The notes below the pieces were generated by a model that was not told the DNA's origin, made no database searches, and saw only the letters and a list, made by a program, of their open reading frames with translations. Positions 32,210 through 45,337 of a stretch of DNA of 64,000 bases are shown one piece after another; positions within the stretch are counted from its first letter, which is position 1, and each line of letters starts with the position of its first letter. The position numbers were made by a program, and so were the translations under genes. Origin of the DNA: Agromyces sp. H66 (GTDB taxonomy: Bacteria; Actinomycetota; Actinomycetes; Actinomycetales; Microbacteriaceae); NCBI RefSeq assembly GCF_004959775.1, contig NZ_SJZG01000010.1, positions 38,605-102,604 on the forward strand. Direction: 5' to 3'.

Positions 32210-33426
32210 CCGCCGTGACGCCGGAGCGCCCGAGCGCGGGGCGCCGCCTCGCCGGATTCGCGCGCCTGCTCGTGAGCCCGCGCGGTGCGGTGTTCCTGCT
32301 CCTGGCCGTGCTGCTCATCGCGATCACGGCACTCAACCCGTCGTTCGCCGAGCCGGGCCAGTTCATCCGGTTCATCCAGCGGGTGGCGCCCGTCGCGATC
32401 GTGGCGATCGGGCAGTACTTCGTGATCGTCGGGGGCGAGTTCGACCTGTCGATGGGATCGGTGGTCACCGCGCAGGTCGTCATCGCCGGCAACCTCATCG
32501 GGCAGGACGACGCGAGATCGGTGCCGGTGCTCGCGCTCATGCTCGCGTTCGGTGCGCTCGTGGGTCTCGTGAACGGCCTCATCGTGTCGTTCCTCAAGGT
32601 GCCGAGCTTCATCGTCACGCTCGGCATGATGCTGGCACTCCTCGGCGCCACGCTGTACTGGACCGGGGGCGCGGCGACCGGCAACCCGGCCGACGGGTTC
32701 CGGCAGATCGGCCGCGGCGGCATCGGCGACCTGCCGGTGATCGGCGTCCTGCCGTGGTCGGTCCTCATCCTCGCGGTCGTGCTCGCCGCCGCGATCTGGT
32801 TCGCGCGCCGCCCGTTCGGCCGCACGATCATCGCGCTCGGCGACAACCCGGTGACCGCCCGTTACTCGGGTACCCGCACCTGGTGGGTGAAGACGTCGAC
32901 GTTCGTCCTCTCCTCGCTCTCGGCGACCGTCGCGGGGGTGCTCCTCGTCGGCTATGCGGGCGTGCACCCGAGCGTCGGCCGCGGCTACGAGTTCACGGCC
33001 ATCACCGCGGTCGTGCTCGGCGGCGTCGTGCTCGGCGGCGGACGCGGCTGGGTGGTCGCCGCCGCGGCCGGCGCGTTCGCGCTCGAGGCCCTGTTCACGC
33101 TGCTCAACTTCGCGGGCGTGCCCTCGACGTATCGCGACGCGGTGCAGGGCGCGATCATCATCCTCGCCGTCGCGTACGCGGCGACCACCGTGAGCGCGCG
33201 CCGACGCGGGCGCGCCCTCGAGGCGCCGGCCGACGCGCCGTCGCCCGATACGGAACCGTCGCCCGATACGGAGCCGTCGCCCGACACCACGCCGGCCACC
33301 GGGCCGGCCCCAGAGACTTCGCCGGCGCCCACGGCGAAGGAGCCCGATCCGTCCCCGGATCCCGCTCGTCCTGCACCCATTCCCTCGACGCAGAGGGCTG
33401 ACAACGAAACCAAGGGAGGTTCGTGA
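32206..33426 (+). CDS. sugar ABC transporter permease (CUT2 type) with long repetitive tail
   Basis: A 406-residue RbsC-like permease. The membrane part (about residues 20-335) has IGQYFVIVGGEFDLSMGSVV near 65 and ALGDNPVTARYSGTRT near 208 as the family blocks. The tail after residue 335 is hydrophilic, Pro/Thr/Glu/Asp-rich and contains three PSPDTx units; it should be cytoplasmic and disordered. ATG 32206 is preceded by GAGGAGG and overlaps the preceding stop. Its stop overlaps the binding-protein start by one base (TGATG). Confidence 0.9.
   Translation: MTAVTPERPSAGRRLAGFARLLVSPRGAVFLLLAVLLIAITALNPSFAEPGQFIRFIQRVAPVAIVAIGQYFVIVGGEFDLSMGSVVTAQVVIAGNLIGQDDARSVPVLALMLAFGALVGLVNGLIVSFLKVPSFIVTLGMMLALLGATLYWTGGAATGNPADGFRQIGRGGIGDLPVIGVLPWSVLILAVVLAAAIWFARRPFGRTIIALGDNPVTARYSGTRTWWVKTSTFVLSSLSATVAGVLLVGYAGVHPSVGRGYEFTAITAVVLGGVVLGGGRGWVVAAAAGAFALEALFTLLNFAGVPSTYRDAVQGAIIILAVAYAATTVSARRRGRALEAPADAPSPDTEPSPDTEPSPDTTPATGPAPETSPAPTAKEPDPSPDPARPAPIPSTQRADNETKGGS
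33238..33291 (+). repeat. three tandem 18-base units in the permease tail
   Basis: Units at 33238-33255, 33256-33273 and 33274-33291 each start CCGTCGCCCGA and encode PSPDTE, PSPDTE and PSPDTT. The first two differ at one base. They probably arose by slippage and may vary in number between strains. Confidence 0.8.
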
Positions 33427-34631
33427 TGCGACGCAGGTTCACTGTGGCATCCGCCATGGTCGGCGCTCTCGCGCTGATCGCGCTCGCCGGCTGTACCACC
33501 GACCCCAACGTGACGGCGCCGACGGATGACGCCGACGCCACGGAGGAGTCGGTCGAGTGGTTCGACCAGGAGCTCTACGACAAGCAGGACGCCGAACGCG
33601 GCGTCACGCCGGAGGGGCCGGAAGGCCAGCCGTGGCTCCAGTACATCAACGCCGAGTTCGTCGACACCTCGCAGCACGCGAGCGAGGGGGCGAAGAAGGC
33701 GTGCTTCGCGAACGCCTCGATCTCGAATCCGTGGCGGCAGACCGGTTGGATCACGATGAACGAGCAGCTGAAGGTGCTGCAGGAGCAGGGCGTGATCTCC
33801 GAGATGGAGACGCGCGACGCCCAGGACTCGGATGACACCCAGATCGCCGACATCGACTACTTCATCAACGAGGGGAACTGCGACGTCTTCGTCATCTCGC
33901 CGAACTCCACGGCGGCGATGACCCCGGCGGTCGAGCGTGCGTGCGACACCGGCAAGCCGGTCATCGTGTTCGACCGCGGCGTGCAGACCGACTGCCCGAC
34001 CACGTTCATCCACCCGATCGGCGGCTTCGCGTGGGGGATCGACACGGCCGAGTTCCTCATCGACGAGCTCGACGAGGGCGCCAAGGTCGTGGCGCTGCGC
34101 ATCCTGCCGGGCGTCGACGTGCTGGAGCAGCGCTGGGCCGCGGCCGAGAAGCTCTTCGACGAGGCGGGCATCGAGGCGGTCGACTACTTCACGGGCGCCG
34201 ACCCGACCGAGATCAAGAAGATCATCTCCGACGAGCTCGCCAAGGGCGACGTGCACGGCGTGTGGATGGATGCCGGTGACGGCGCCGTCGCGGCTATCGA
34301 GGCGTTCGAGGACGCCGGCGTCGACTATCCCGTGATGACGGGTGAGGACGAGATGAGCTTCCTCCGCAAGTGGAAGGAGACCGGGCTCACGGGCCTCGCG
34401 CCGGTGTACTCGAACTTCCAGTGGCGCACGCCGCTGCTCGCGATCCAGAAGATCTTCGCGGGTGAGGAGGTGCCGAAGGAGTGGGTGCTCCCGCAGAGCC
34501 CGATCACCGCCGGAGAGGTCGACCAGTACCTCGAGGCGAACGACGGCATGCCCGACGGCCACTACGCGAAGTTCGGCGGCGAGGACCTGCCGGGCTACCC
34601 GCAGGTCTGGCAGGATCGCGTCATCCCGTAA
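33426..34631 (+). CDS. sugar ABC transporter substrate-binding lipoprotein
   Basis: A 401-residue periplasmic-binding-protein family 4 type receptor. The signal peptide ends in the lipobox LAGC (Cys 22), so it should be lipid-anchored outside the membrane. Mature blocks include CDVFVISPNSTAAM near 145, GKPVIVFDRGVQTDC near 165 and VWMDAGDGAVAAIEAFEDAG near 280, the two-lobed Rossmann-like fold. ATG 33426 has GGGAGG six bases upstream and overlaps the permease stop. An in-frame GTG three bases earlier is less likely. Ligand unknown; the ribose/galactose/inositol group is most similar by eye. Confidence 0.9.
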   Translation: MRRRFTVASAMVGALALIALAGCTTDPNVTAPTDDADATEESVEWFDQELYDKQDAERGVTPEGPEGQPWLQYINAEFVDTSQHASEGAKKACFANASISNPWRQTGWITMNEQLKVLQEQGVISEMETRDAQDSDDTQIADIDYFINEGNCDVFVISPNSTAAMTPAVERACDTGKPVIVFDRGVQTDCPTTFIHPIGGFAWGIDTAEFLIDELDEGAKVVALRILPGVDVLEQRWAAAEKLFDEAGIEAVDYFTGADPTEIKKIISDELAKGDVHGVWMDAGDGAVAAIEAFEDAGVDYPVMTGEDEMSFLRKWKETGLTGLAPVYSNFQWRTPLLAIQKIFAGEEVPKEWVLPQSPITAGEVDQYLEANDGMPDGHYAKFGGEDLPGYPQVWQDRVIP

Positions 34632-34649
34632 CCCTCAACGCCACCACCA

Positions 34650-34697
34650 CCGAGAGTGCACTCCCAGCCCTTCCGAGGGCGAAGAGTGCACTCTCGG
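34650..34697 (+). terminator. intra-operon hairpin after the binding-protein gene
   Basis: CCGAGAGTGCACTC (34650-34663) and GAGTGCACTCTCGG (34684-34697) are perfect 14-base arms with a 20-base loop. Placed 18 bases after the binding-protein stop and 40 bases before the isomerase gene, it may partially terminate transcription or protect the upstream mRNA, giving more binding protein than isomerase. Confidence 0.65.
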
Positions 34698-34737
34698 AAC
34701 TCACTACTCGATCACTGGGCATTCGCGAGGAGGCCGC

Positions 34738-35607
34738 ATGCGTCGCACCATCGGCGTGAACACCTGGGTGTGGACGTCGCCGCTCGACGACGCCGCGCTC
34801 GCCGCCATTGCGGCGAAGGCCGCTGGCATGGGCTTCGGGGCGATCGAGCTGCCGATCGAGCAGCCGGGGGACTGGGCTCCGGATGCCGCGGCCGACGTGC
34901 TCGCCGAGCACGGGCTCGCGCCCATCGTGATCGGCGCCATGGGGCCCGGCCGCAACCTCGTCGCCGCGCCCGGGTCCGAGATCGTGGCGACGCAGAACTA
35001 TCTCGTGCACTGCCTCGGCGTCGCAGAGCGGCTCGGGTCCCCGGTGGTCGCCGGACCGTTCACCGCGGCCACCGGACGGGCCTGGCGCATGGACGCCGAG
35101 GAACGCGAGGCCCGCTACCGCGAGCTGCGCACGAGCCTCGCGCCCCTCGTCCGGCAGGCGGAGGCACGCGGCATCCGTCTCGCGATCGAGCCGCTGAACC
35201 GCTACGAGACCAGCCTCGTGAACACGGTCGAGCAGGCGCTCGAGGCGCTCGGACCGCTGCTCGGCCCGGGCCTCGGCCTGGCGCTCGACAGCTACCACCT
35301 CAACATCGAGGAGAAGCACGTCGGCGATGCGATCCGCGCGGCGGGCGAGCACCTCGCGCACGTGCAGGTCTGCGGCAACGACCGCGGGGCCGTGGGCGAC
35401 GATCACCTCGACTGGCCCGGATTCCTCGACGCCCTCGACGAAACCGGCTATGCCGGTGTGCTCGGGCTCGAGAGTTTCACGGGCGAGAACGCGACGATCG
35501 CGGTCGCGGCGTCCGTGTGGCGGCCGCTCGCGGCATCCCAGGACGAACTCGCGGAGCGCAGCATCCGCTACCTGAACGCACTGCAGGACGAAAGGGACGT
35601 GACATGA
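34738..35607 (+). CDS. sugar phosphate isomerase/epimerase (TIM barrel, tagatose 3-epimerase-like)
   Basis: A 289-residue xylose-isomerase-like TIM barrel. Family features are GVNTWVWTSPL at the start, LAIEPLNRYETS near 160 with a metal-binding Glu, LALDSYHLNIEE near 192 with Asp and His, and LGLESFTGEN near 250 with the last Glu. The pattern resembles D-tagatose/D-psicose 3-epimerases, so 3-epimerisation of a keto sugar is a reasonable guess. ATG 34738 follows AGGAGG at a four-base spacing. Its stop overlaps the next gene start by four bases. Confidence 0.82.
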   Translation: MRRTIGVNTWVWTSPLDDAALAAIAAKAAGMGFGAIELPIEQPGDWAPDAAADVLAEHGLAPIVIGAMGPGRNLVAAPGSEIVATQNYLVHCLGVAERLGSPVVAGPFTAATGRAWRMDAEEREARYRELRTSLAPLVRQAEARGIRLAIEPLNRYETSLVNTVEQALEALGPLLGPGLGLALDSYHLNIEEKHVGDAIRAAGEHLAHVQVCGNDRGAVGDDHLDWPGFLDALDETGYAGVLGLESFTGENATIAVAASVWRPLAASQDELAERSIRYLNALQDERDVT

Positions 35608-36635
35608 CCGCTTCGACGGGCTCGGCGACCGATTCCCACCCTGTAACTCTCTTCACCGGTCAGTGGGCCGACCTCTCGTTCGAGGAGGTCGCCCGGCTCG
35701 CCGCCGAATGGGGTTACGACGGGCTCGAGATCGCGTGCTCGGGCGACCATCTCGACCTGAAGCTCGCCGAGGAGGAGCCGGGCTACCTCGACGAGCGCCG
35801 CGAGATCCTGAAGCGGCACGGGCTCGAGGTGTACGCGATCTCGAACCACCTGACCGGACAGGCGGTGTGCGACGACCCTATCGACTTCCGGCACGAGGCG
35901 ATCCTGCGCCCGTACACGTGGGGCGACGGCGACGCCGAGGGCGTCAGGCAGCGGGCCGCCGACGACATGAAGCGCTCGGCGCGCGTGGCGCGGGCGCTCG
36001 GGGTCGACACCGTCGTCGGCTTCACCGGGTCGAGCATCTGGCCGTACGTGGCGATGTTCCCGCCCGTGCCGGCGTCGGTGATCGAGGGCGGGTTCGAGGA
36101 CTTCGCGAATCGGTGGAATCCGATCCTCGACGTGTTCGACGCCGAGGGCGTGCGGTTCGCGCACGAGGTGCACCCGTCGGAGATCGCGTACGACTACTGG
36201 AGCTCGGTGCGCACGCTCGAGGCGATCGACCACCGTGCGGCGTTCGGGTTCAACTGGGACCCGAGCCACATGATGTGGCAGGGCATCGACCCGGTCGGCT
36301 TCATCCTCGAGTTCCAGGACCGCATCTACCACGTCGACTGCAAGGACACCCGGCTTCGACCGCAGAACGGGCGCGCGGGCGTGCTCGGCTCGCACCTGCC
36401 GTGGGGCGATCCGCGACGCGGCTGGGACTTCGTCTCGACCGGGCACGGCGACGTGCCATGGGAGGACGCGTTCCGCGCGCTCGACGCGATCGGCTACACG
36501 GGCCCGATCTCGGTCGAGTGGGAGGACGCCGGCATGGACCGCCTGCACGGCGCCAGGGAGGCGGTCGGGTTCATCCGCTCGCTCCTCTGGCCGCGGCCCA
36601 CCGTCTCGTTCGACGCGGCGTTCTCGAACCAGTAG
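35604..36635 (+). CDS. sugar phosphate isomerase/epimerase family protein (TIM barrel)
   Basis: A 343-residue xylose-isomerase-like TIM barrel, more distant from the preceding gene. It has DGLEIACSGDHLDLK near residue 40, FAHEVHPSEIAYDYWS near 188 with a metal-site Glu, GFNWDPSHMMWQGIDP near 214 with Asp and His, and ISVEWEDAGMDRLHGA near 300 with the last Glu. Related proteins act on sugars or inositol derivatives. The N terminus encodes MTASTGSATD across a CTTCGACGGGCTC sequence that resembles the repeat at 2946-2960, so the first ten residues may derive from a repeat element. Last gene of the operon. Confidence 0.82.
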   Translation: MTASTGSATDSHPVTLFTGQWADLSFEEVARLAAEWGYDGLEIACSGDHLDLKLAEEEPGYLDERREILKRHGLEVYAISNHLTGQAVCDDPIDFRHEAILRPYTWGDGDAEGVRQRAADDMKRSARVARALGVDTVVGFTGSSIWPYVAMFPPVPASVIEGGFEDFANRWNPILDVFDAEGVRFAHEVHPSEIAYDYWSSVRTLEAIDHRAAFGFNWDPSHMMWQGIDPVGFILEFQDRIYHVDCKDTRLRPQNGRAGVLGSHLPWGDPRRGWDFVSTGHGDVPWEDAFRALDAIGYTGPISVEWEDAGMDRLHGAREAVGFIRSLLWPRPTVSFDAAFSNQ

Positions 36636-36708
36636 CGGGCGGATGCCCCGCCGCGGGCGCTGCTCGGGAGGCCCACGCATCGCGAGAGCCGCCGAGCGAG
36701 TGGCCCGT

Positions 36709-36732
36709 TCGGGCCATCCGACGATGGCCCGA
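36709..36732. terminator. hairpin after the sugar operon
   Basis: TCGGGCCAT (36709-36717) and ATGGCCCGA (36724-36732) form a perfect nine-base stem with a six-base loop, about 75 bases after the last operon gene. Probably the operon terminator. Confidence 0.5.
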
Positions 36733-36828
36733 AGACGCGATGCCCCCGGGTGCCGCTTCGCGGTGGAATCGATGACAACCGACCGACCCCGTCATACCGG
36801 GGCGGGACAGCTACACCAGGGAGTCATC

Positions 36829-37236
36829 ATGTCCGAGACCGTCACCGCCGACATCAGCCGCGCTCGCGCGTCGATCGCATTCGGCCGCGAGCACGGGTAC
36901 TACCGCGTGCTCTTCGAGGCGGGTCCCGTGGACGCGGCCGGCTTCGCGGAACTCGCGGGGGTGTCCGAGCACCATGCTCGAGCCTGGCTCGACGAGCAGG
37001 TCGAGGCGGGCGTGCTCCGCGCCGTCGCCGCCCCGAGCGGCGACCGGGAGGAGCTGCTGCTCCCCGGCGAGCACGTGCCGATCCTCCTCGGCGACCGGGG
37101 CGGCCACGAACTCGACGGCGCCCGGGAGCTCCTGGACGAGCACCGCGACGAGCTGCCCGCGGTGCTCGGCGCCGAGCACGAACACCGGCGCGTGCGCGCC
37201 TTCGCCGACCACGCCCGCCTGATGCGCGTGGTCTAG
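36829..37236 (+). CDS. truncated methyltransferase: stand-alone winged-helix N-terminal domain
   Basis: A 135-residue product matching only the first part of the complete methyltransferase at 38517-39758. HGYYRVLFEAGPVDAAGFAE and LAGVSEHHARAWLDEQVEAG align with GLYRALHEHGPMTADRLAAS and the following helix there, and HVPILLGDRGG aligns with HVPVLVGETHP. The SAM-binding domain is absent. The frame is intact, with ATG 36829 preceded by AGGGAG, so a small DNA-binding or dimerisation protein may still be made. It is followed by the intact hydrolase-LuxR fusion, 33 bases away, mirroring the second cassette copy. Confidence 0.7.
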   Translation: MSETVTADISRARASIAFGREHGYYRVLFEAGPVDAAGFAELAGVSEHHARAWLDEQVEAGVLRAVAAPSGDREELLLPGEHVPILLGDRGGHELDGARELLDEHRDELPAVLGAEHEHRRVRAFADHARLMRVV

Positions 37237-37269
37237 GCCGAGCATCCCTCGCCTTCCTAGACTGGGGGC

Positions 37270-38331
37270 GTGCAGCCCGAGGACCAGGTCATCCGCTACG
37301 CGGAGTTCGACGGGACGTCGATCGCCTGGTCCGCGGTCGGCTCCGGGCCGCTCCTGATCGTCGGCGGGTGGTGGTCGAGCCACCTCGAGCTCGACTGGCG
37401 CAACCCCGGGTTCCGGCGGTTCGTCGGGGAACTGGCGCGGCATCGCACCGTCGTCCGCTACGACCGGCCCGGCGCGGGCGTGTCCGATCGCGGGGTGATG
37501 CCGGCACGCTCGCTCGACGAGGAGGTCGAGACGTTCGAGCGACTCGTCGAGGTCGCCTCGCCGGGTGCCGGGCCGATCTCGCTTTTCGGTGCGTCGTCGG
37601 GCGGCGGAGTGGCCTCGCTGTTCGCGGCGAGGCATCCCGAACGCGTCGATCGCATGGTGCTGTACGGCACGTACGCCCGCGGCGTCGATCTCGCGCCGCC
37701 CGCCGCGCGCGAGGCGATGCTCGGCGTCATCGAACAGCACTGGGGGCTCGGCTCGCGCGTGCTCGCCGACCTGTTCCTGCCCGATGCGACGGCCGAGGAA
37801 CGCGACGAGTTCGTCGAGTTCCAGCGTCGCTCCGCCTCACGCGAGGTCGCACTCGCGTCGCTTCGCGCCGTCTACGCCTTCGACGCCTCGGGCCACCTCG
37901 GCGACGTGCTCGCGCCCACGCTCGTGCTGCACCGGCGTGCCGACCGCGCGATCCCGTTCGCGCTCGGCAAGGACGTGGCGGGCCGCATCCGCAACGCGCG
38001 CTTCGTCGCCCTCGAGGGCGACGACCACTTCCCCTGGCGCGGCGACGTCGACGCCGTCGTGCGCGAGACGCTCGACTTCCTCGGGGTGCCCGTCGAGACG
38101 CCCCGGCCGAATGCCGCGGGCGCGGCCGGCGCCGGCGCCGCGCGGCTCACCGAACGCGAACGCGAGGTGCTGCGCCTCGTCGCCCGCGGCGAGACCGACG
38201 CCGAGATCGCGGCGCGCCTCGTGCTGTCGGCGCACACCGTGCACCGGCACATCGCGAACATCCGCACCAAGCTGGGGGTGCCGTCGCGCACCGCCGCGGC
38301 CGCATGGGCGCTGCGCAACGAGCTCATCTGA
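37270..38331 (+). CDS. alpha/beta hydrolase fused to a LuxR-type DNA-binding domain
   Basis: A 353-residue two-domain protein. Residues 1-280 are an alpha/beta hydrolase: VGGWWSSHLELDW oxyanion region, nucleophile elbow GASSGGG near 108 (Ser), an acid in HRRADRAIPFA near 223 and the catalytic His in LEGDDHFPWRGD near 250. Residues 295-353 are a LuxR HTH: LTEREREVLRLVARGETDAE and HTVHRHIANIRTKLGV. Fusions of this kind are known as adenylate-cyclase-linked or signalling hydrolases in actinobacteria; here the hydrolase may sense rather than degrade a small molecule. GTG 37270 has GGGGGC just upstream. A decayed paralogue lies at 39802-40440. Confidence 0.85.
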   Translation: MQPEDQVIRYAEFDGTSIAWSAVGSGPLLIVGGWWSSHLELDWRNPGFRRFVGELARHRTVVRYDRPGAGVSDRGVMPARSLDEEVETFERLVEVASPGAGPISLFGASSGGGVASLFAARHPERVDRMVLYGTYARGVDLAPPAAREAMLGVIEQHWGLGSRVLADLFLPDATAEERDEFVEFQRRSASREVALASLRAVYAFDASGHLGDVLAPTLVLHRRADRAIPFALGKDVAGRIRNARFVALEGDDHFPWRGDVDAVVRETLDFLGVPVETPRPNAAGAAGAGAARLTEREREVLRLVARGETDAEIAARLVLSAHTVHRHIANIRTKLGVPSRTAAAAWALRNELI

Positions 38332-38516
38332 ACCCCTCGGGTGGGCGCACCTGCCGCCGCCCACCTGCTCAGGTGAGCGAACGGATGCCCCGGCCTGGCC
38401 GCTTCCGGCCATGGCGGGTTGGCCGGTTCGGGCGATTCCCCGGCCGCGCGCATCGGCGTTGACTGTGTCCCCGTGCCGGGGATCCGCCCGGCCGTATGAC
38501 GATGCAAGGAATCACC

Positions 38517-39758
38517 ATGTCCGACACCCTGACCACCGGCGGTGCAGCACGCCCCGAGGGCGACCCGCACGTCCTGGCCGAGGATCCGGCCGTCACCTCG
38601 TTCCCGGCCGACGTCACGACCTCGCCCGAGGCCGAGGCCGACGCCGCAGCCCGGGTCGGCGCCTACGCCCAGCAGCTCGTCGGCATGCTCGGCGGCGCCG
38701 CCGAACTGCTCACCATCGAGATCGGCCGGCGGTTCGGTCTCTACCGTGCGTTGCACGAGCACGGGCCCATGACCGCCGACCGACTCGCCGCGTCCGCCGG
38801 CATCGCCCCGCGCTACGCGCGCGAGTGGCTCGAGCAGCAGGCCGCCGCCGGCCACGTCGCCGTCGAGGTGTCGGGAGACTCCGGACTCGACCGCCGGTTC
38901 AGCCTGCCGCCCCTCCACGTGCCCGTGCTCGTCGGCGAGACGCACCCGGCGCACGTCGCCCCGGTCGCGAGCCTCGCCGCGGGCGTCGCACTGGCCTTCC
39001 ACGAGGTCGTCGCCGACTTCGGCCAGGGCAACGGTGTCGCCTACGACGAATACGGCGCGGAGCTCCGTCGGGGACTCGGCGACCTGCACCGGCCCAGGTT
39101 CACGCACGAGATGCGCGGCTGGGTCGACGCGTTGCCCGACCGGGCCGCGGCACTCGACGCGGGTGGCGCGGTGCTCGACGCGGGCTGCGGCACGGGCTGG
39201 TCGACGATCTCCCTGGCGAACGCGTTCCCGAACGCGCACGTCGTGGGCCTCGACCTCGACGAGGCCTCCATCGAGGAGGCCAGGGAGAACGCCCTCGCTG
39301 CGGGCGTCGCCGACCGGGTCGCATTCGTGCTCGGCGACGCCGCCGACGCCGGGGCCGTGCAGCGTGCCGCCGCCTCGGCGCGAGGTGCGGGGGAGCGCGC
39401 CGACGGGGCATCCGGTTTCGACCTCGTCACCATCTTCGAGGCGTTGCACGACATGGGACGGCCGGTCGACGCGCTCGCCGGCATCCGCGCGCTGCTGCGA
39501 CCGGGTGGCGCGCTCCTCGTCGCCGACGGGCGCGTCGCCGACGAGTTCCACGCGAATGCCGAACCGGTCGAGCGGATGCTGTACGCGCTCAGCGTGCTGC
39601 ACTGCGTCCCTGCGACGACCGCCGAGTCCGACGCGGTCGCGAACGGCACGGTGCTGCGCGCGCCGACGCTGCGACGGTGGGCGGCAGAGGCGGGCTTCGG
39701 GCCGGTCGACGTGCTCGACATCGAGAACCCGTTCTGGCGCTTCTACCGCATCGGGTGA
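38517..39758 (+). CDS. SAM-dependent methyltransferase with N-terminal winged-helix domain
   Basis: A 413-residue class I methyltransferase of the Rv2258c-like type. After a disordered Ala/Asp/Glu-rich 45-residue stretch, a winged-helix dimerisation domain contains FGLYRALHEHGPMTADRLAA near residue 78. The SAM motif is VLDAGCGTGWSTISLANA near 220, motif II VVGLDLDEASIEEAREN near 242, and FDLVTIFEALHDMGRPVDA near 301 marks the later core. ATG 38517 follows AAGGA at a seven-base spacing; an in-frame ATG at 38496 is less likely. The decayed hydrolase-LuxR paralogue follows 43 bases later. Substrate unknown. Confidence 0.85.
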   Translation: MSDTLTTGGAARPEGDPHVLAEDPAVTSFPADVTTSPEAEADAAARVGAYAQQLVGMLGGAAELLTIEIGRRFGLYRALHEHGPMTADRLAASAGIAPRYAREWLEQQAAAGHVAVEVSGDSGLDRRFSLPPLHVPVLVGETHPAHVAPVASLAAGVALAFHEVVADFGQGNGVAYDEYGAELRRGLGDLHRPRFTHEMRGWVDALPDRAAALDAGGAVLDAGCGTGWSTISLANAFPNAHVVGLDLDEASIEEARENALAAGVADRVAFVLGDAADAGAVQRAAASARGAGERADGASGFDLVTIFEALHDMGRPVDALAGIRALLRPGGALLVADGRVADEFHANAEPVERMLYALSVLHCVPATTAESDAVANGTVLRAPTLRRWAAEAGFGPVDVLDIENPFWRFYRIG

Positions 39759-39801
39759 GTGCGCCCTTCCTCGCGTCCGACGGCGCTTCTGCACTGGGGC
39801 C

Positions 39802-40440
39802 GTGGAGCCCGGTGATCAGCTGATCCGCTACGCCGAGCTCGCCATCCTCGAGGCCCGCGTCGCCACCGCCGTCGGCGACGCCGAGGTCGCCGTGTTCGGC
39901 GTGTCGTCGGGTGGCGCGGTCTCGTCGTCGTTCGCGGCGAGGCATCACGGAGCGGGTGTCGGCGCTGATCCTGTACGGCTCGTTCGCGAACGGCACCGAC
40001 CTCGGCCCGCCCGCGGTGCGCGAGGGGCTCGTCGACGTGATCCGCGCCCACGGGGGGTTCGGCTCCCGTGTGCTCGCCGACCTCTTCCTCCCCGACGCGA
40101 GCATCGACGATCGCGACGAGTTCGTCGACTCCACCCCGCACCTCGGGCTCATCCGCGCGCCCGCGCTCGTGCTGCACCGGCGCGAGGACCACGCGATCCG
40201 GTTCGCGCTCGCGGCGGACCTCGCGGCGCGGATTCCCGGCGCGCGGCGAGCTCACCGATCGGGAGAAGGAGGTGCTGCGCCTCGTCGCGCGGGGCGAGAC
40301 CGACCAGGCCATCGCCGGCCTCCTCGTGCTGAGCCCGCACACCGTGCATCGGCACCTCGCGAACATCCGCACGAAGCTCGGCGTCCCGTCCCGTGCGGCC
40401 GCGGCGGCGTGGGCGCTTCGCCACGGACTCATCCGACGCG
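39802..40440 (+). pseudogene. decayed alpha/beta hydrolase-LuxR paralogue
   Basis: This is a broken copy of the gene at 37270. From GTG 39802 it reads EPGDQLIRYAEL, then jumps over about 75 residues to VFGVSSGGAVSSSFAARH. A frame change near 39945 leads to SALILYGSFANGTDL and GSRVLADLFLPDASIDDRDEFV, then another in-frame gap of roughly 30 residues. A second frame change near 40240 follows, and finally a nearly perfect LuxR domain (LTDREKEVLRLVARGETDQA, HTVHRHLANIRTKLGV). The His region of the hydrolase is gone and the native stop is missing. No functional full protein can be made. Confidence 0.8.
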
Positions 40441-40481
40441 ACCCGACGCGGCACGGGCGCGGAGCATCCGCCCACCCGGCT

Positions 40482-40512
40482 CATAGGAAACGCATAGGGC
40501 GGCGCGGATACT
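40482..40512 (+). promoter_or_regulatory. direct-repeat site and -10 of the two-component operon
   Basis: CATAGG occurs at 40482-40487 and 40493-40498, exactly one helical turn (11 bases) apart, the spacing preferred by OmpR-type response regulators. GATACT (40507-40512) is a -10-like element ending six bases before the ATG at 40519, so the mRNA is probably leaderless or nearly so. Autoregulation by the encoded regulator is inferred. Confidence 0.6.
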
Positions 40513-40518
40513 GGAGGC

Positions 40519-41265
40519 ATGAGCACCACCGCGACATCCCAGCACCGCGCCCCGCAGCTCGCGAAGGGCGACGGCTCCATGGTGCGCGTCCTCGTCGTCG
40601 ACGACGAGCAGTCGCTCACCGACCTGCTGAAGATGGCGCTGCGGTACGAGGGCTGGGACGTGCGCACCGCCGCCGACGGGCTCACCGCGGTCAAGGTCGC
40701 GCGCGAGTTCCGCCCCGACGCGATCGTGCTCGACATCATGCTCCCCGACATCGACGGGCTCGAGGTGCTGCAGCGGGTGCGCGCCGACGGAACCGAGACC
40801 CCCGTGCTCTTCCTCACCGCGAAGGACTCGCTCGACGACCGCATCGCCGGCCTCACCGCGGGCGGCGACGACTACGTCACCAAGCCGTTCAGCCTCGAAG
40901 AGGTGGTCGCGCGGCTGCGCGGACTCATCCGCCGATCCAGCCTGACGCTCGCCAAGGCGAAGGGCCCCGTGCTCGTCGTCGGCGATCTCACGCTCGACGA
41001 GGACTCCTACGAGGTCGCGCGCGGCGGCACGCCCATCGAGTTGACGGCCACGGAGTTCGAGCTGCTCCGCTTCCTCATGCGCAACCCACGCCGCGTGCTC
41101 TCCAAGGCGCAGATCCTCGACCGGGTCTGGAGCTACGACTTCGGCGGCCGTGAGTCGGTCGTCGAGCTCTACATCTCCTACCTGCGCAAGAAGATCGACG
41201 CCGGTCGCGAGCCGATGATCCACACCGTGCGCGGCGCCGGCTACCTGCTCAAGGCCGCTGGATGA
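40519..41265 (+). CDS. OmpR-family response regulator
   Basis: A 248-residue DNA-binding response regulator. The receiver domain has VLVVDDEQSLTDLL near residue 24, the phosphorylated Asp 72 in VLDIMLPD, the LTAKD Thr/Lys region near 94 and VTKPFS near 119. The C-terminal winged helix shows ELTATEFELLRFLMRNPRRV and SVVELYISYLRKKID. The gene overlaps the sensor kinase start by four bases. It resembles the TcrX/MprA group of actinobacterial regulators; the signal is unknown. Confidence 0.94.
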   Translation: MSTTATSQHRAPQLAKGDGSMVRVLVVDDEQSLTDLLKMALRYEGWDVRTAADGLTAVKVAREFRPDAIVLDIMLPDIDGLEVLQRVRADGTETPVLFLTAKDSLDDRIAGLTAGGDDYVTKPFSLEEVVARLRGLIRRSSLTLAKAKGPVLVVGDLTLDEDSYEVARGGTPIELTATEFELLRFLMRNPRRVLSKAQILDRVWSYDFGGRESVVELYISYLRKKIDAGREPMIHTVRGAGYLLKAAG

Positions 41266-42806
41266 CCAGGCCGGGCGATCCCGGCCACGCCGCGGCGGCG
41301 CGCGAGGAGGCGACCTCGCACGTCCCGGCTCAGGTGACCGGGCCGATGGCGGATGCCGCGCTCCCGCGTCACCCGGTGACCCTGCACCGGCGACTCCTCG
41401 TCATCGTGGCCGCGTTGCTCGTCGCCGTGAGCGCCGTCATCGGCGTGGCGACCGTGGCCATCTTCCACGGCTCGTCGGTGGAGCGCCTCGACGCGAGTCT
41501 CCGCGCGACGACGACCCGTGCCGACCAGGTCGACGTCCCGGCGCTTCCGCCCGATCCGTCGGTGCGCGCCGAGGAGTTCCTGCGCGTTCCCGGCCAGCCC
41601 GTCGGCACGCTCGCGGCGTTCGTCAGCGACACCACGGTGTTCGCTCGGTACATCTCCGCGGGCGGCGAGGTTCCAGAGCTCGACGTCGCCGCCACCCGCG
41701 CCCTGACGGAGGTGCCACTCGACGGCAGGCCGCACACCATCACGGTGGGCTCGCTGGGCGAGTACCGCGCGCTGGCCCTCTCGCTGGAGGCCGCGCCCGA
41801 ATTCCGTGCCGTGCTCGCCCTGCCCATGGCCGACCTGAATGCACAGACGACGCAACTGGCCTGGACGGTCGCGCTCGTGGCGCTCGCGGGCCTTGCCGTC
41901 GCACTCGCGATCGGTTCCGCCGTGGTGCGGCGCGCGCTGAGCCCGCTCGCCGACGTCACCAGCACGGCGCAGCGCGTGTCGGATCTGCCGCTCGACCGCG
42001 GCGACGTCGCGCTCGCCGAGCGCGTGCCGGTCGGCGACGAGCGCACCGAGGTCGGCCGCCTGGGCACGGCGTTCAACCGCATGCTCGGACACGTGGCATC
42101 CGCGCTCTCGGCCCGCGAGCAGAGCGAGCAGAAGGTGCGCCGCTTCGTCGCGGACGCGAGTCACGAGCTCCGCACGCCGCTCGCCTCGATCCGCGGCTAC
42201 GCCGAGCTCACGCGGCTGCACGGCGGCGAGCTCCCGCCCGACGTGGTGCACGCGATCGGCCGGATCGAGGCGGAGTCGTTGCGCATGACCGAGCTCGTCG
42301 AGGACCTCCTGTTGCTCGCCCGTCTCGACGAGGGCCGCGAACTCGCCGCCCGGCCCGTGGACCTGCGTCAGCTCGTGGTCGACTCGGTCGGCGACGCGCA
42401 GGCTGCGGGCCCAGACCACGACTGGCGCGTCGCCGTGCCCGACGAGCCGGTGACCGTCATGGGCGACGCGTCGCGGCTGCACCAGGTGCTGGCGAACCTG
42501 CTCGCGAACGCGCGGGCGCACACGCCCGAGGGCACGGAGGTCGTGGTTCGCCTGCAGCGGGTGACGGATGCCGCGCCCGACCGGGTGCGCCTCACCGTGA
42601 CCGATGACGGTCCGGGCATCGACGCCGGCGTGCGTGCGAACCTGTTCGAGCGATTCGTGCGCGGCGACGCCTCCCGGTCGCGCCGAGCGGGGAGCACCGG
42701 TCTCGGGCTCGCCATCGTGCGCGCCGTCGTCGAGGCGCATGGCGGCACGGTCGCCGTCGAGAGCGAGCCCGGTCGCACCGAGTTCACGGTCGACCTGCCC
42801 GCCTGA
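41262..42806 (+). CDS. sensor histidine kinase
   Basis: A 514-residue membrane sensor kinase, partner of the upstream response regulator. A 45-residue cytoplasmic lead is followed by helix 1 (LLVIVAALLVAVSAVIGVAT, near 45-65), an extracellular sensor of about 130 residues and helix 2 (VALVALAGLAVALAIGSAVV, near 205-225). Next come HAMP, the H-box FVADASHELRTPLASI with phospho-His 301, the N-box HQVLANLLANARAHT near 407, the G1 motif DDGPGIDAG near 447, and G2 TGLGLAIVRAVVE near 480. The extracellular part lacks an identifiable sensory fold. Terminates at the long hairpin 42836-42893. Confidence 0.93.
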   Translation: MTRPGDPGHAAAAREEATSHVPAQVTGPMADAALPRHPVTLHRRLLVIVAALLVAVSAVIGVATVAIFHGSSVERLDASLRATTTRADQVDVPALPPDPSVRAEEFLRVPGQPVGTLAAFVSDTTVFARYISAGGEVPELDVAATRALTEVPLDGRPHTITVGSLGEYRALALSLEAAPEFRAVLALPMADLNAQTTQLAWTVALVALAGLAVALAIGSAVVRRALSPLADVTSTAQRVSDLPLDRGDVALAERVPVGDERTEVGRLGTAFNRMLGHVASALSAREQSEQKVRRFVADASHELRTPLASIRGYAELTRLHGGELPPDVVHAIGRIEAESLRMTELVEDLLLLARLDEGRELAARPVDLRQLVVDSVGDAQAAGPDHDWRVAVPDEPVTVMGDASRLHQVLANLLANARAHTPEGTEVVVRLQRVTDAAPDRVRLTVTDDGPGIDAGVRANLFERFVRGDASRSRRAGSTGLGLAIVRAVVEAHGGTVAVESEPGRTEFTVDLPA

Positions 42807-42835
42807 TTCGCGGGTCGCGCGGGGAGGCGGAAGCG

Positions 42836-42893
42836 CGAGATGATGCCAAGTGCACCGTTCCCCGGCCAGCACGGTGCATTTGGCATCATCTCG
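42836..42893. terminator. long-stem bidirectional terminator
   Basis: Arms 42836-42858 and 42871-42893 pair over 23 bases with one G-T wobble and a 12-base loop, located between the convergent sensor kinase and MarR genes. Same architecture as the hairpin at 4729-4784. Confidence 0.8.
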
Positions 42894-42942
42894 GCGCCCG
42901 ACCGGGTGAGGCGCCCGAGCAGGCCAGACGGGTGCTCGGGCG

Positions 42943-43446
42943 TCAGCCCTCGTCGCCCGAGCCGGGCGACGGCTCCTCGGCGACCATGACCTCGTTCGCG
43001 AGGCGGCCGAGCAGTCGCGCGAGCTGTTCGACGTCCTCGGCCGGCCAGGTTCGCAGCTTCGCGTGGGTCTGGCGCTGCATCCGGGAGGCCTTCTGGCCGA
43101 CGCGCTCGATCGCCTGGGGCGTGGGCCGGATGATCCGGGCCCGGCCGTCCGTCGGGTCGGCCGCCCCCTCGGCGAGGCCGAGCGCCTGGAGGTGCCGGAT
43201 CTGGCGGCTCACGACGCTCTTGTCGATCTCGAGCTCGGCGGCGATGGCCCCGGCGTGCATCGGCCCGCGACGCACGATCGCCGACAGGATCTTGTAGCCC
43301 ACCGGTTGCAGGTCTGGATGCACGGCGGCGGCGGCCTCCTTCCACACGGCTCGCGCCCGCACGAAGAGCAGCCGGAGCTGCTCCTCGACCGAGGCGATCT
43401 CGTCGTCGGAGGCCGTGCGCGATGCGGCCGCGTCGGGGGCGGTCAT
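42943..43446 (-). CDS. MarR-family transcriptional regulator
   Basis: A 167-residue repressor-type winged-helix protein. HPDLQPVGYKILSAIVRRG, AIAAELEIDKSVVSRQIRHL (HTH) and DPTDGRARIIRPTP (wing) appear in order. The end is Glu/Pro/Ser-rich. It starts nine bases after the drug exporter stop on the same strand, so it is the second gene of the exporter operon and probably represses it through the palindromes at 45293-45337. Confidence 0.9.
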   Translation of the reverse strand: MTAPDAAASRTASDDEIASVEEQLRLLFVRARAVWKEAAAAVHPDLQPVGYKILSAIVRRGPMHAGAIAAELEIDKSVVSRQIRHLQALGLAEGAADPTDGRARIIRPTPQAIERVGQKASRMQRQTHAKLRTWPAEDVEQLARLLGRLANEVMVAEEPSPGSGDEG

Positions 43447-43455
43447 GGGGCGATC

Positions 43456-45276
43456 CTATTGCCCGTCGGAACGTGGTCCGCGCGCGACGGATGCCTCGTC
43501 CACCACGTCGAGGGCATCGGTGGCGGGATCGTGCGCGAGACCCACCGGGGTGAGCGCGACGGATGCCGCGGCGGTGTCGATCACGGCGTCCGCAGCATCC
43601 TCGAATTCCCGGACGTGCTCCTCGTGTCGATCGGCCGGGGTCGCGGTCGCGGCATCCGCCCGCTCCTCGGCTTTCGCCCGCTGGATCGCGTTCTGGGTGC
43701 CCAGGGTCACGTTGGGGAGGAAGAGCACCGCGACGAGCGTGACGATCGCCAGCGGGACCGCGGTCAGGAACACGCTGCCCACGCCGGTGCCGTAGGCGGA
43801 CTCGACGATGACCCGGAGGAACCCCGGCAGCTGGCTGATCTGGGGGATCGTGCCGCCGTCGAGCGTCCTGGCCGCCTCGAGCTGCTGCTCTGGTGAGAGC
43901 CCGCCGATTCCCGTGGCGATGTGCTCGGCCACCACGGTGCCGAGGATCGAGCCCATGACCGCGACGCCGACGGCGCCGCCGAGGCTGCGGAAGAACGTCA
44001 CCGCACTGGTGGCGACGCCGAGGTTCCTCACCTCCGTCGTGTTCTGCACGATGAGCACGAGGTTCTGCATCAGCATTCCGACCCCGGCACCGAGCGCGAA
44101 CATCGAGACGCCGACGTACCAGAAGTCGGTGTCGTACTCGAGTCGCGAGAGCAGGATGCTGCCGATGATCATGAGCACGCTTCCGGCGACCATGAAGCCC
44201 TTCCACCTGCCGCGCCGGCTCACGAGCGCGCCGATCACGGTGGAGGCGATGAGCAGGCCCGCCATCATGGGGATCGTGAGCAGACCGGACTCGGTCGGAG
44301 TGGCGCCGCGCGCGAGCTGCATGTACTGGCTGAGGAAGACCGCGGTGCCGAACATCGCAACCCCGACGGAGATCGAGGCGATCACGGCGAGCGTGAACGT
44401 GCGGTTCCGGAAGAGGCCGAGCGGGATGACCGGCTCCTTCACGCGGAGCTCGACCATGATCGCGATCGCGAGGAGGAGCACCGCGCCGCCCACCATGACG
44501 AGGCTCGGTACCGAGATCCACTCGAACTCGCTGCCCGCGAACGTCACCCAGAGCAGGAGGAGCGAGACGCCCGCCGAGATGAGCACGATGCCCACATAGT
44601 CGATGGAGACCTTCTGCCTCGGGCGCTTGGGCAGGTGCAGGGTGCGCTGGAGCAGCACGAGGGCGACAACGGCGATCGGCAGGGCGACGAAGAAGTTCCA
44701 GCGCCAGCCGAGGCCGTCGGTGAGGACGCCGCCGAGCAGCGGCCCACCGACGGTGGCCACCGCCATGACGGCGCCGAAGAGCCCGGCGTACTTCCCGCGT
44801 TCGCGCGGGCTGATGATGTCGGCCATGACGATCTGGCTGAGGGCCACGAGCCCGCCCGCGCCGATGCCCTGGAAGACGCGCATCGTGATGAGGGTTGCGG
44901 TGTCCTGCGAGAAGCCGGCGATCGCCGAGGCGAGCACGAACACCACGAGGGCCAGCTGCAGCAGTAGCTTGCGGTTGAACAGGTCGGCCAGCTTGCCCCA
45001 CACGGGCGTCGACACGGTGGTCGCGAGCAGGGTCGCCGTGACGACCCAGGTGAAGGCCGACTGGTCGCCCTCGAGGTCGGAGATGATGACCGGGAGCGAC
45101 GTGCCGACGACCGTGTTCGCGAGCATCGACACGAACATGCCGAGCAGCAGGCCCGAGAGCGCGGTGAGCACCTCCCGGTGGGTCATGCCGTTGTCGGAGA
45201 GCGCGGCGGGCGCGGAAAGCGCGGCGGGCGCGGCATCCGTCGGCTTCGGAGCGCGAACGCGGGAGGGCTTGGCCAT
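43456..45276 (-). CDS. MFS drug exporter, DHA2 (14-helix) family
   Basis: A 606-residue proton-driven exporter with fourteen predicted membrane helices. Motif A lies in GKLADLFNRKLLL near 90, the RVFQGIGAGGLVALS block (motif B) near 130 and the GPLLGGVLTDGLGWRWNFF block (motif C) near 180, which marks drug:H+ antiporters. A 30-residue N-terminal tail and a 100-residue acidic C-terminal tail flank the membrane part. ATG 45276 has TGGAG just upstream; a TTG at 45306 would run through the operator and is unlikely. Cotranscribed with a MarR repressor. Confidence 0.9.
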   Translation of the reverse strand: MAKPSRVRAPKPTDAAPAALSAPAALSDNGMTHREVLTALSGLLLGMFVSMLANTVVGTSLPVIISDLEGDQSAFTWVVTATLLATTVSTPVWGKLADLFNRKLLLQLALVVFVLASAIAGFSQDTATLITMRVFQGIGAGGLVALSQIVMADIISPRERGKYAGLFGAVMAVATVGGPLLGGVLTDGLGWRWNFFVALPIAVVALVLLQRTLHLPKRPRQKVSIDYVGIVLISAGVSLLLLWVTFAGSEFEWISVPSLVMVGGAVLLLAIAIMVELRVKEPVIPLGLFRNRTFTLAVIASISVGVAMFGTAVFLSQYMQLARGATPTESGLLTIPMMAGLLIASTVIGALVSRRGRWKGFMVAGSVLMIIGSILLSRLEYDTDFWYVGVSMFALGAGVGMLMQNLVLIVQNTTEVRNLGVATSAVTFFRSLGGAVGVAVMGSILGTVVAEHIATGIGGLSPEQQLEAARTLDGGTIPQISQLPGFLRVIVESAYGTGVGSVFLTAVPLAIVTLVAVLFLPNVTLGTQNAIQRAKAEERADAATATPADRHEEHVREFEDAADAVIDTAAASVALTPVGLAHDPATDALDVVDEASVARGPRSDGQ

Positions 45277-45292
45277 ATGACTCCAGAATTGA

Positions 45293-45337
45293 TTGATTGG
45301 AGTCAACTATAAGGAACTAGTGGACTTACGTCAACTA
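45293..45337. promoter_or_regulatory. two MarR-type operators ahead of the drug exporter
   Basis: Site 1 (45293-45306) is TTGATTGG-AGTCAA, an imperfect palindrome. Site 2 (45318-45337) has arms TAGTGGAC and GTCAACTA around TTAC with one mismatch. Both contain TAGTTGAC/GTCAACTA in the exporter direction. Core spacing and sequence resemble the site at 11117-11130. Confidence 0.6.

Follow-up and report, generated by a model that had tools for sequence, protein, structure and literature searches.

The question raised by this locus is whether two adjacent pairs of genes in the soil bacterium Agromyces sp. H66, each with a methyltransferase-like gene followed by a gene for an alpha/beta hydrolase fused to a LuxR-type DNA-binding domain, are two copies of one cassette. 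The stretch studied, called the window here, is 64,000 nucleotides (nt) of a 4.23-Mb draft genome (G000:C2:38605-102604); positions are those of the window, and the genes are called M1, H1, M2 and H2 in their order. An earlier note on this DNA had proposed a duplicated two-gene cassette with reciprocal decay, and had offered as an alternative a regulatory module of a winged helix, a methyltransferase and a hydrolase-type receptor. The four genes do lie where that note placed them, with M2 complete, H1 intact and H2 broken, and it is the alternative that a shared operator supports. We regard it as probable, and as the best explanation of the whole, that the locus holds a self-contained regulatory circuit with a dead remnant next to it. 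The evidence is comparative: a predicted operator stands only before M1 and M2 in this genome and is tied to H (the hydrolase-LuxR gene or protein of any genome), M1, H1 and M2 are conserved, and H2 comes from a foreign lineage. The M1-H1 pair and M2 are assigned to one module because they have a common operator and because the pairing of regulator and methyltransferase recurs in other genera. The features are as follows.

36701-36741, forward strand: predicted operator O1, with the palindrome TGGCCCGTTCGGGCCA (36701-36716), 8 nt and then TGGCCCGAAGACGCGAT; 87 nt before the M1 start
36829-37236, forward strand: M1, a stand-alone winged-helix protein of 135 amino acids (aa), homologous to the N-terminal domain of Rv2258c/TnmJ-type methyltransferases
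37258-37263, forward strand: hexamer TAGACT, 6 nt before the GTG of H1
37270-38331, forward strand: H1, an intact protein of 353 aa with an alpha/beta hydrolase sensor and a LuxR/GerE DNA-binding domain; triad S109-D225-H253
38396-38436, forward strand: predicted operator O2, with the palindrome TGGCCGCTTCCGGCCA, 8 nt and then TGGCCGGTTCGGGCGAT; 80 nt before the M2 start
38517-39758, forward strand: M2, a complete Rv2258c/TnmJ-like S-adenosylmethionine (SAM) methyltransferase of 413 aa
39762-40438, forward strand: H2 remnant, an intergenic region and a broken hydrolase-LuxR gene (39802 to about 40438) of a divergent 'beta' lineage

The predicted operator is a tandem site of about 41 bp, in which the palindrome TGGCC-N6-GGCCA is followed after 6-9 bases by a second box, TGGC(C/T)-(C/G)-N6-G(C/G)GAT, that reads TGGCC-N7-GCGAT before both M1 and M2 in the H66 genome. 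The core pattern occurs in exactly two copies in the whole of that genome, before M1 and before M2, and a reversed control gave none. We compared 60 Agromyces genomes, H66 included (G-numbers denote genomes and L-numbers loci), and found H at E 1e-40 in 26 of them; identity is at least 54% in 23 of these, H66 among them, and 38-43% in the other three, and an H relative of at least 54% identity is called a close H within the genus. The longer pattern, derived from an alignment of 20 M1 and 8 M2 upstream regions, has 30 sites in 23 of the 60 genomes: 20 before M1, 8 before M2 and 2 in G079, so that every one of the 20 M1 and 8 M2 genes beside H is preceded by an operator. The operator-bearing genomes are exactly the 23 with a close H, the other 37 have none, and the reversed control was empty in all 60 (Fisher 4e-17 for the association, a value that ignores relatedness and the matches that defined the pattern). 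Within the genus it is the absence elsewhere and the two G079 sites that are informative, G079 having been outside the pattern-defining alignment; its sites lie about 0.9 kb before and 2.5 kb behind H. The second of them (G079:C1:137320-137360, L172) points to a region with a frame that by eye resembles FAD-dependent oxidoreductases, possibly a further class of target.

Independent tests come from the family and from other genera. A scan of 398 family genomes found seven sites in five genomes, and none in the control. H was already known in three of the five (H66 itself, G079 and G089); in the other two, G292 and G443, which belong to other genera, it had not been known before, and an H of 57% and 60% identity, respectively, lies about 90-100 bp from the operator. 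We also collected 44 loci across actinobacterial genera by their H protein, 13 from Agromyces and 31 from elsewhere, and the palindrome is present in 41 of them (13/13 and 28/31). The three misses are L204, L225, which is cut at a contig end, and L227, whose H is only 32% identical. Dinucleotide shuffling (30 rounds) gave a mean of 0.7 and a maximum of 2 of the 44 loci, and the best of the 29 other half-sites of the same composition reached 14. The palindrome is absent from the examined loci of H relatives at 36-50% identity, and G079, G089, G292 and G443 have the operator, with neither M1 nor M2 matched in the regions examined. As judged from these distributions, the operator goes with H and not with M1 or M2. 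Because it is confined to genomes with a close H, predicts H in G292 and G443, and accompanies H in nearly all of the 44 loci, H1 is very probably its cognate regulator. The operator thus stands near the gene of its presumed regulator and co-occurs with that protein, as is expected of a LuxR-type one-component regulator, with G122 and L204 as exceptions. The region of the second helix of the helix-turn-helix, HTVHRH, is unchanged in 21/21 close H proteins and altered in H relatives without the operator: that of G122 reads HTAHRH, and more distant ones diverge further.

The same distribution bears on the idea that M1, not H1, is the operator-binding protein and that H1 acts elsewhere. M1 has a winged helix, MarR regulators are among its structural matches, and the operator precedes all 20 M1 genes beside H; yet the operator is kept with H where no M1 match was found in the regions examined (G079, G089, G292, G443, Nocardia and Nocardioides), M1-like frames that stand away from H are without it, and the best M1 matches are the N-terminal domains of the methyltransferases TnmJ and Rv2258c. 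We consider it very improbable that M1 is the binder.

The C-terminal GerE domain of H1 (PF00196) scores 64.2 bits against a cut-off of 23.5 (E 8.5e-18), and at E 0.01 the N-terminal part of the protein matches hydrolase families only, with no autoinducer-binding and no receiver domain. H1 was accordingly rejected as an N-acyl homoserine lactone quorum-sensing LuxR or LuxR solo, which has the former domain at its N terminus, and as a NarL/FixJ response regulator, which has the latter. The catalytic triad S109, D225 and H253, assigned from motif positions, is unchanged in 8/8 and in 21/21 close H proteins. The model of the sensor domain (mean predicted local distance difference test, pLDDT, 89) matches a depolymerase, esterases, an enol-lactonase and the receptors DAD2 and KAI2. 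The ratio of nonsynonymous to synonymous substitution (omega, by NG86, which is crude for such GC-rich genes) is 0.19-0.26 between H1 and the H of 13 genomes with the 'alpha' form. The earlier note had pointed to a shared start region, ACTGGGG...GTG, and this is real: it is the tail of a hexamer, TA(G/C)ACT, that stands 6-7 nt before the H GTG in 18/20 rows, H2 having TGCACT there. The hexamer resembles a leaderless -10 element; that before H1 is a probable -10 of a leaderless transcript, which suggests that H also has a leaderless promoter of its own.

M1 had been described as a methyltransferase cut down to its winged-helix domain. It is not the product of recent decay but a conserved short gene: relatives have the same short form as a stable, independent gene, the very finding that the earlier note had set against its own proposal. 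An open-frame short M1 stands beside H in 20 of the 23 close-H genomes, H66 included, and no M1 match was found beside H in G237, G247 and G079. In 19 of these 20 genomes its stop lies 9-61 bp before H; G243 is the exception, with 1,117 bp between the two and a reverse-strand frame of 312 aa in that space. Three M1 rows have an internal stop where the match overruns the M1 stop, and with local matches only that of G234 still does; M1 ends before H in all 20 genomes. Nor is M1 the duplicate of M2, as it forms a clade of its own, and the branch that divides this clade from M2, the M2 paralogs and a Microbacterium methyltransferase has 100% support (winged-helix tree of 54 rows and 120 columns, in which ownC12 is a long, misplaced branch within the M2 group). 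Omega of the H66 M1 is 0.24-0.39 against 11 alpha genomes, 0.56-0.64 against G210, G222 and G226, and 0.69-0.84 against five beta genomes, with a range of 0 to 1.30 over all 190 M1 pairs; among close relatives these substitution patterns indicate purifying selection. The median pairwise values (M1 0.60, H1 0.32, M2 0.32) make M1 the least constrained of the three.

No Pfam family matches M1, and the SAM-binding domain of Rv2258c-like methyltransferases was not found in it. Its predicted fold is a winged helix with long flanking helices (mean pLDDT 88), for which Foldseek gave the N-terminal domains of TnmJ and Rv2258c as best matches. The root-mean-square deviation is poor against whole methyltransferases (10-13 Å over longer alignments) and 2.2-2.5 Å over 84 columns against two Rv2258c chains; an M1 profile search retrieves TnmJ at 8.7e-5. 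In RedM, whose authors count Rv2258c among its structural homologs, the N-terminal domain is described as the dimerization domain (PMC10784701). Second M1-like frames occur at G213:C1:331925-332227 (L137) and G251:C9:94304-94630 (L138), away from any H match, and the operator was not found in the 8-9 kb around them.

M2 has both domains of the Rv2258c-like methyltransferases, HTH_65 (PF21320, 5.8e-8) and a methyltransferase domain (PF13847, 8.1e-22), and matches TnmJ (4e-39) and Rv2258c (1.3e-31) over most of its length. Orthologs stand beside H in seven other genomes, with omega of 0.26-0.41 against the H66 gene. Ten genes that stand at or close to the operator were compared with Pfam in other genera. 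Seven match Methyltransf_11; that of L197 matches the homocysteine S-methyltransferase family (its listed frame opens upstream of the operator, with the family match starting downstream), and those of L198 and L201 have no Pfam match. Seven methyltransferase probes matched 34 of the 44 H loci, three of them by M1 itself; the remaining 31 are 5/13 Agromyces loci, by M2, and 26/31 others. By eye, the palindrome lies directly before the methyltransferase in 23 of these 26; another gene stands between the two in L197 and L222, and in L204, which lacks the palindrome, a match resembling box 2 precedes the methyltransferase. The pairing is not obligatory, as 15 of the 23 close-H Agromyces genomes have no M2 beside H and no methyltransferase was matched by the seven probes in L198, L200 and L201. 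In G079, one of the 15, a different methyltransferase-like frame was seen by eye beside H. In the Cryobacterium loci L198, L200 and L222 the operator-facing gene is divergent from H and encodes a protein of about 290 aa, hotdog/thioesterase-like by eye; that of L198 has neither a Pfam nor an NCBIfam match. Elsewhere in the H66 genome, LuxR-type genes are followed by Rv2258c-like methyltransferases at G000:C1:410620-412106 (L139) and G000:C12:481137-482633 (L140), where the operator was not found in the 7 kb examined; the pairing of LuxR and methyltransferase thus recurs with other regulators.

H2 looks at first sight like a decayed copy of H1. The two are similar in DNA, in colinear blocks of which three long ones are 75-79% and a 49-base start block 82% identical, and, as the earlier note had it, several segments are missing from H2, whose frame is broken by two changes. 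They are not, however, tandem copies: over aligned bases H2 shares 82% identity with the H of G241 and 72% with H1, and it joins G241 with 100% ultrafast bootstrap support within a 'beta' clade that also holds G213, G227, G236 and G251. H1 and H2 were therefore rejected as tandem duplicates, not being each other's closest relatives, and that one working copy of each gene is left is a coincidence of two separate histories. Tandem duplication of a methyltransferase/hydrolase-LuxR cassette followed by reciprocal decay can appeal to these colinear blocks, to the winged-helix domain common to both methyltransferase-like genes (42% over about 76 residues) and to Microbacterium sp. Root166 (L202), where a full Rv2258c-like methyltransferase, 48% identical to M2, precedes H and the palindrome is present. 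With H2 grouping away from H1, and with an M1 that is short in 20 genomes and separated from M2 and its paralogs with 100% support, we give this explanation almost no credence.

The similarity of H2 to G241 sets in three bases past the M2 stop, at 39762, and includes the intergenic stretch before H. Relative to G241, about 219, 66 and 128-130 bases are missing, the first two losses being in frame, and one base is inserted near 39947. Differences between H2 and G241 fall 20/11/48 on the three codon positions, and those of the intact pair G213 and G241 fall 42/32/98; the pattern is that found between intact genes, so most of the divergence of H2 predates its break and the decay is recent. In a tree of the downstream flank G241 groups with G218 (100), a carrier of the alpha form, which suggests that the beta form has passed from one lineage to another here. 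H2 is the remnant, broken only recently, of an H allele from a divergent lineage; most simply, it stayed behind when recombination brought an M1-H1-M2 segment in beside or over a resident M1-H pair. Alternatively, an ancient tandem pair of alpha H1 and beta H2 was present in the Agromyces ancestor, one or the other member was lost in nearly all species, and H2 is decaying now. That G241 has the beta form only, though its downstream flank groups with alpha carriers, is as expected if either copy could be lost; this history requires many independent losses, however, and the 21 other Agromyces genomes with an H of at least 63% identity have no second H in regions of 8.5-14 kb. We think it unlikely, and prefer the remnant of a recombined allele.

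The surroundings of the locus are conserved. By eye, the upstream flank (33423-36635) has genes for a sugar-binding protein and two isomerase-like proteins, and the downstream flank (40519-45306) a response regulator/kinase pair and MarR-like and MFS-like genes. Between the H/M2 block and the response regulator, 13 of 21 relatives have a conserved gene on the reverse strand, about 470-550 aa long and in most cases accompanied by another of about 220-275 aa; neither is present at 40439-40518 of the window. No structured RNA reached the gathering threshold between 36000 and 41500.

Several observations weigh against a circuit centered on H1. The 28 upstream regions from which the pattern was made match it by construction, and single boxes are not enriched in the H66 genome (10 sites against 13 in the reversed control), so that only the tandem form is informative there and a single-box regulon was rejected. 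G122 has an H of 50% identity and no operator, L204 keeps the HTVHRH helix yet has no palindrome, and M1 or another local protein could be the operator binder in Agromyces. M2 is beside H in only 8 of the 23 H-bearing Agromyces genomes, M1 is under weaker constraint than H1, and the two M1-like frames away from H lack the operator. For H2, three flank-gene trees place H66 with varying support (73, 26 and 88 at its node), and the recombination history is one of two possible orders of events.

LuxR output domains and hydrolase sensors are each already known. H1 resembles the LuxR/GerE one-component regulators (PF00196) in its C-terminal domain, its palindromic operator and its probable control of its own operon and a neighbor, and differs from them in having an alpha/beta hydrolase with an intact triad as sensor. 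M2 is like the Rv2258c and TnmJ methyltransferases (PDB 5f8c, 8g5s) over most of its length, whereas M1 is like their N-terminal domain, has no catalytic domain and stands alone in an operon with a regulator. The H1 sensor shares its fold, and a triad kept in a signaling protein, with the plant receptors DAD2/D14 (4dnq, E 2.4e-15) and KAI2 (4hta, E 4.2e-15), but is closer to bacterial depolymerases, esterases and hydrolases (up to 7.7e-17) and differs in its output, a fused DNA-binding domain. The best NCBIfam match of H1 is the LipJ-type hydrolase-adenylate cyclase fusion (NF058673; 3.8e-21, 75 bits, far below the 800-bit cut-off), in which an alpha/beta hydrolase is likewise fused to a signaling output, there a cyclase and in H1 a LuxR domain. 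Among the titles and beginnings of abstracts listed by searches of open-licence papers we found no description of a hydrolase-LuxR fusion, nor of a hydrolase-LuxR regulator with a defined operator and recurrent, exchangeable methyltransferase targets.

We propose the following mechanism. H1, a one-component transcription factor of the LuxR type whose sensor is an alpha/beta hydrolase, would bind the tandem operator before M1, presumably as dimers, and so control the M1-H1 operon and with it its own gene, and would bind the second copy before M2, whose product is probably a methyltransferase of small molecules. H1 may be switched by a ligand that its hydrolase domain binds or hydrolyzes, the methyltransferase may act on the H1 ligand or a relative of that molecule, and H1 may sense the methyltransferase product. 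M1 would be the surviving dimerization/winged-helix domain of an old methyltransferase, working as a partner or co-regulator. More tentatively, and as a possibility that we do not favor strongly, the hydrolase domain of H could act as a receptor for what the methyltransferase under operator control produces, a methylated small molecule such as a methyl ester. The methyltransferase would then write the mark, the hydrolase domain would read and erase it, and the fused LuxR domain would set methyltransferase expression.

What follows for this family is that an operator and a recurrent class of targets, methyltransferases, can be assigned to hydrolase-fused LuxR proteins in at least 10 named actinobacterial genera, with an operator specific enough to have predicted two unseen regulators. 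M1 is an example of a cut-down enzyme domain that persists as a separate gene, and H2 shows that a broken neighbor can mimic a duplicate while being the allele of another lineage. If the proposed loop is true, unrelated methyltransferases (Methyltransf_11 and Rv2258c-like) would have been exchanged behind one operator, and Actinomycetes would have a bacterial write-read-erase loop in one regulator, built like the plant hydrolase-type hormone receptors.

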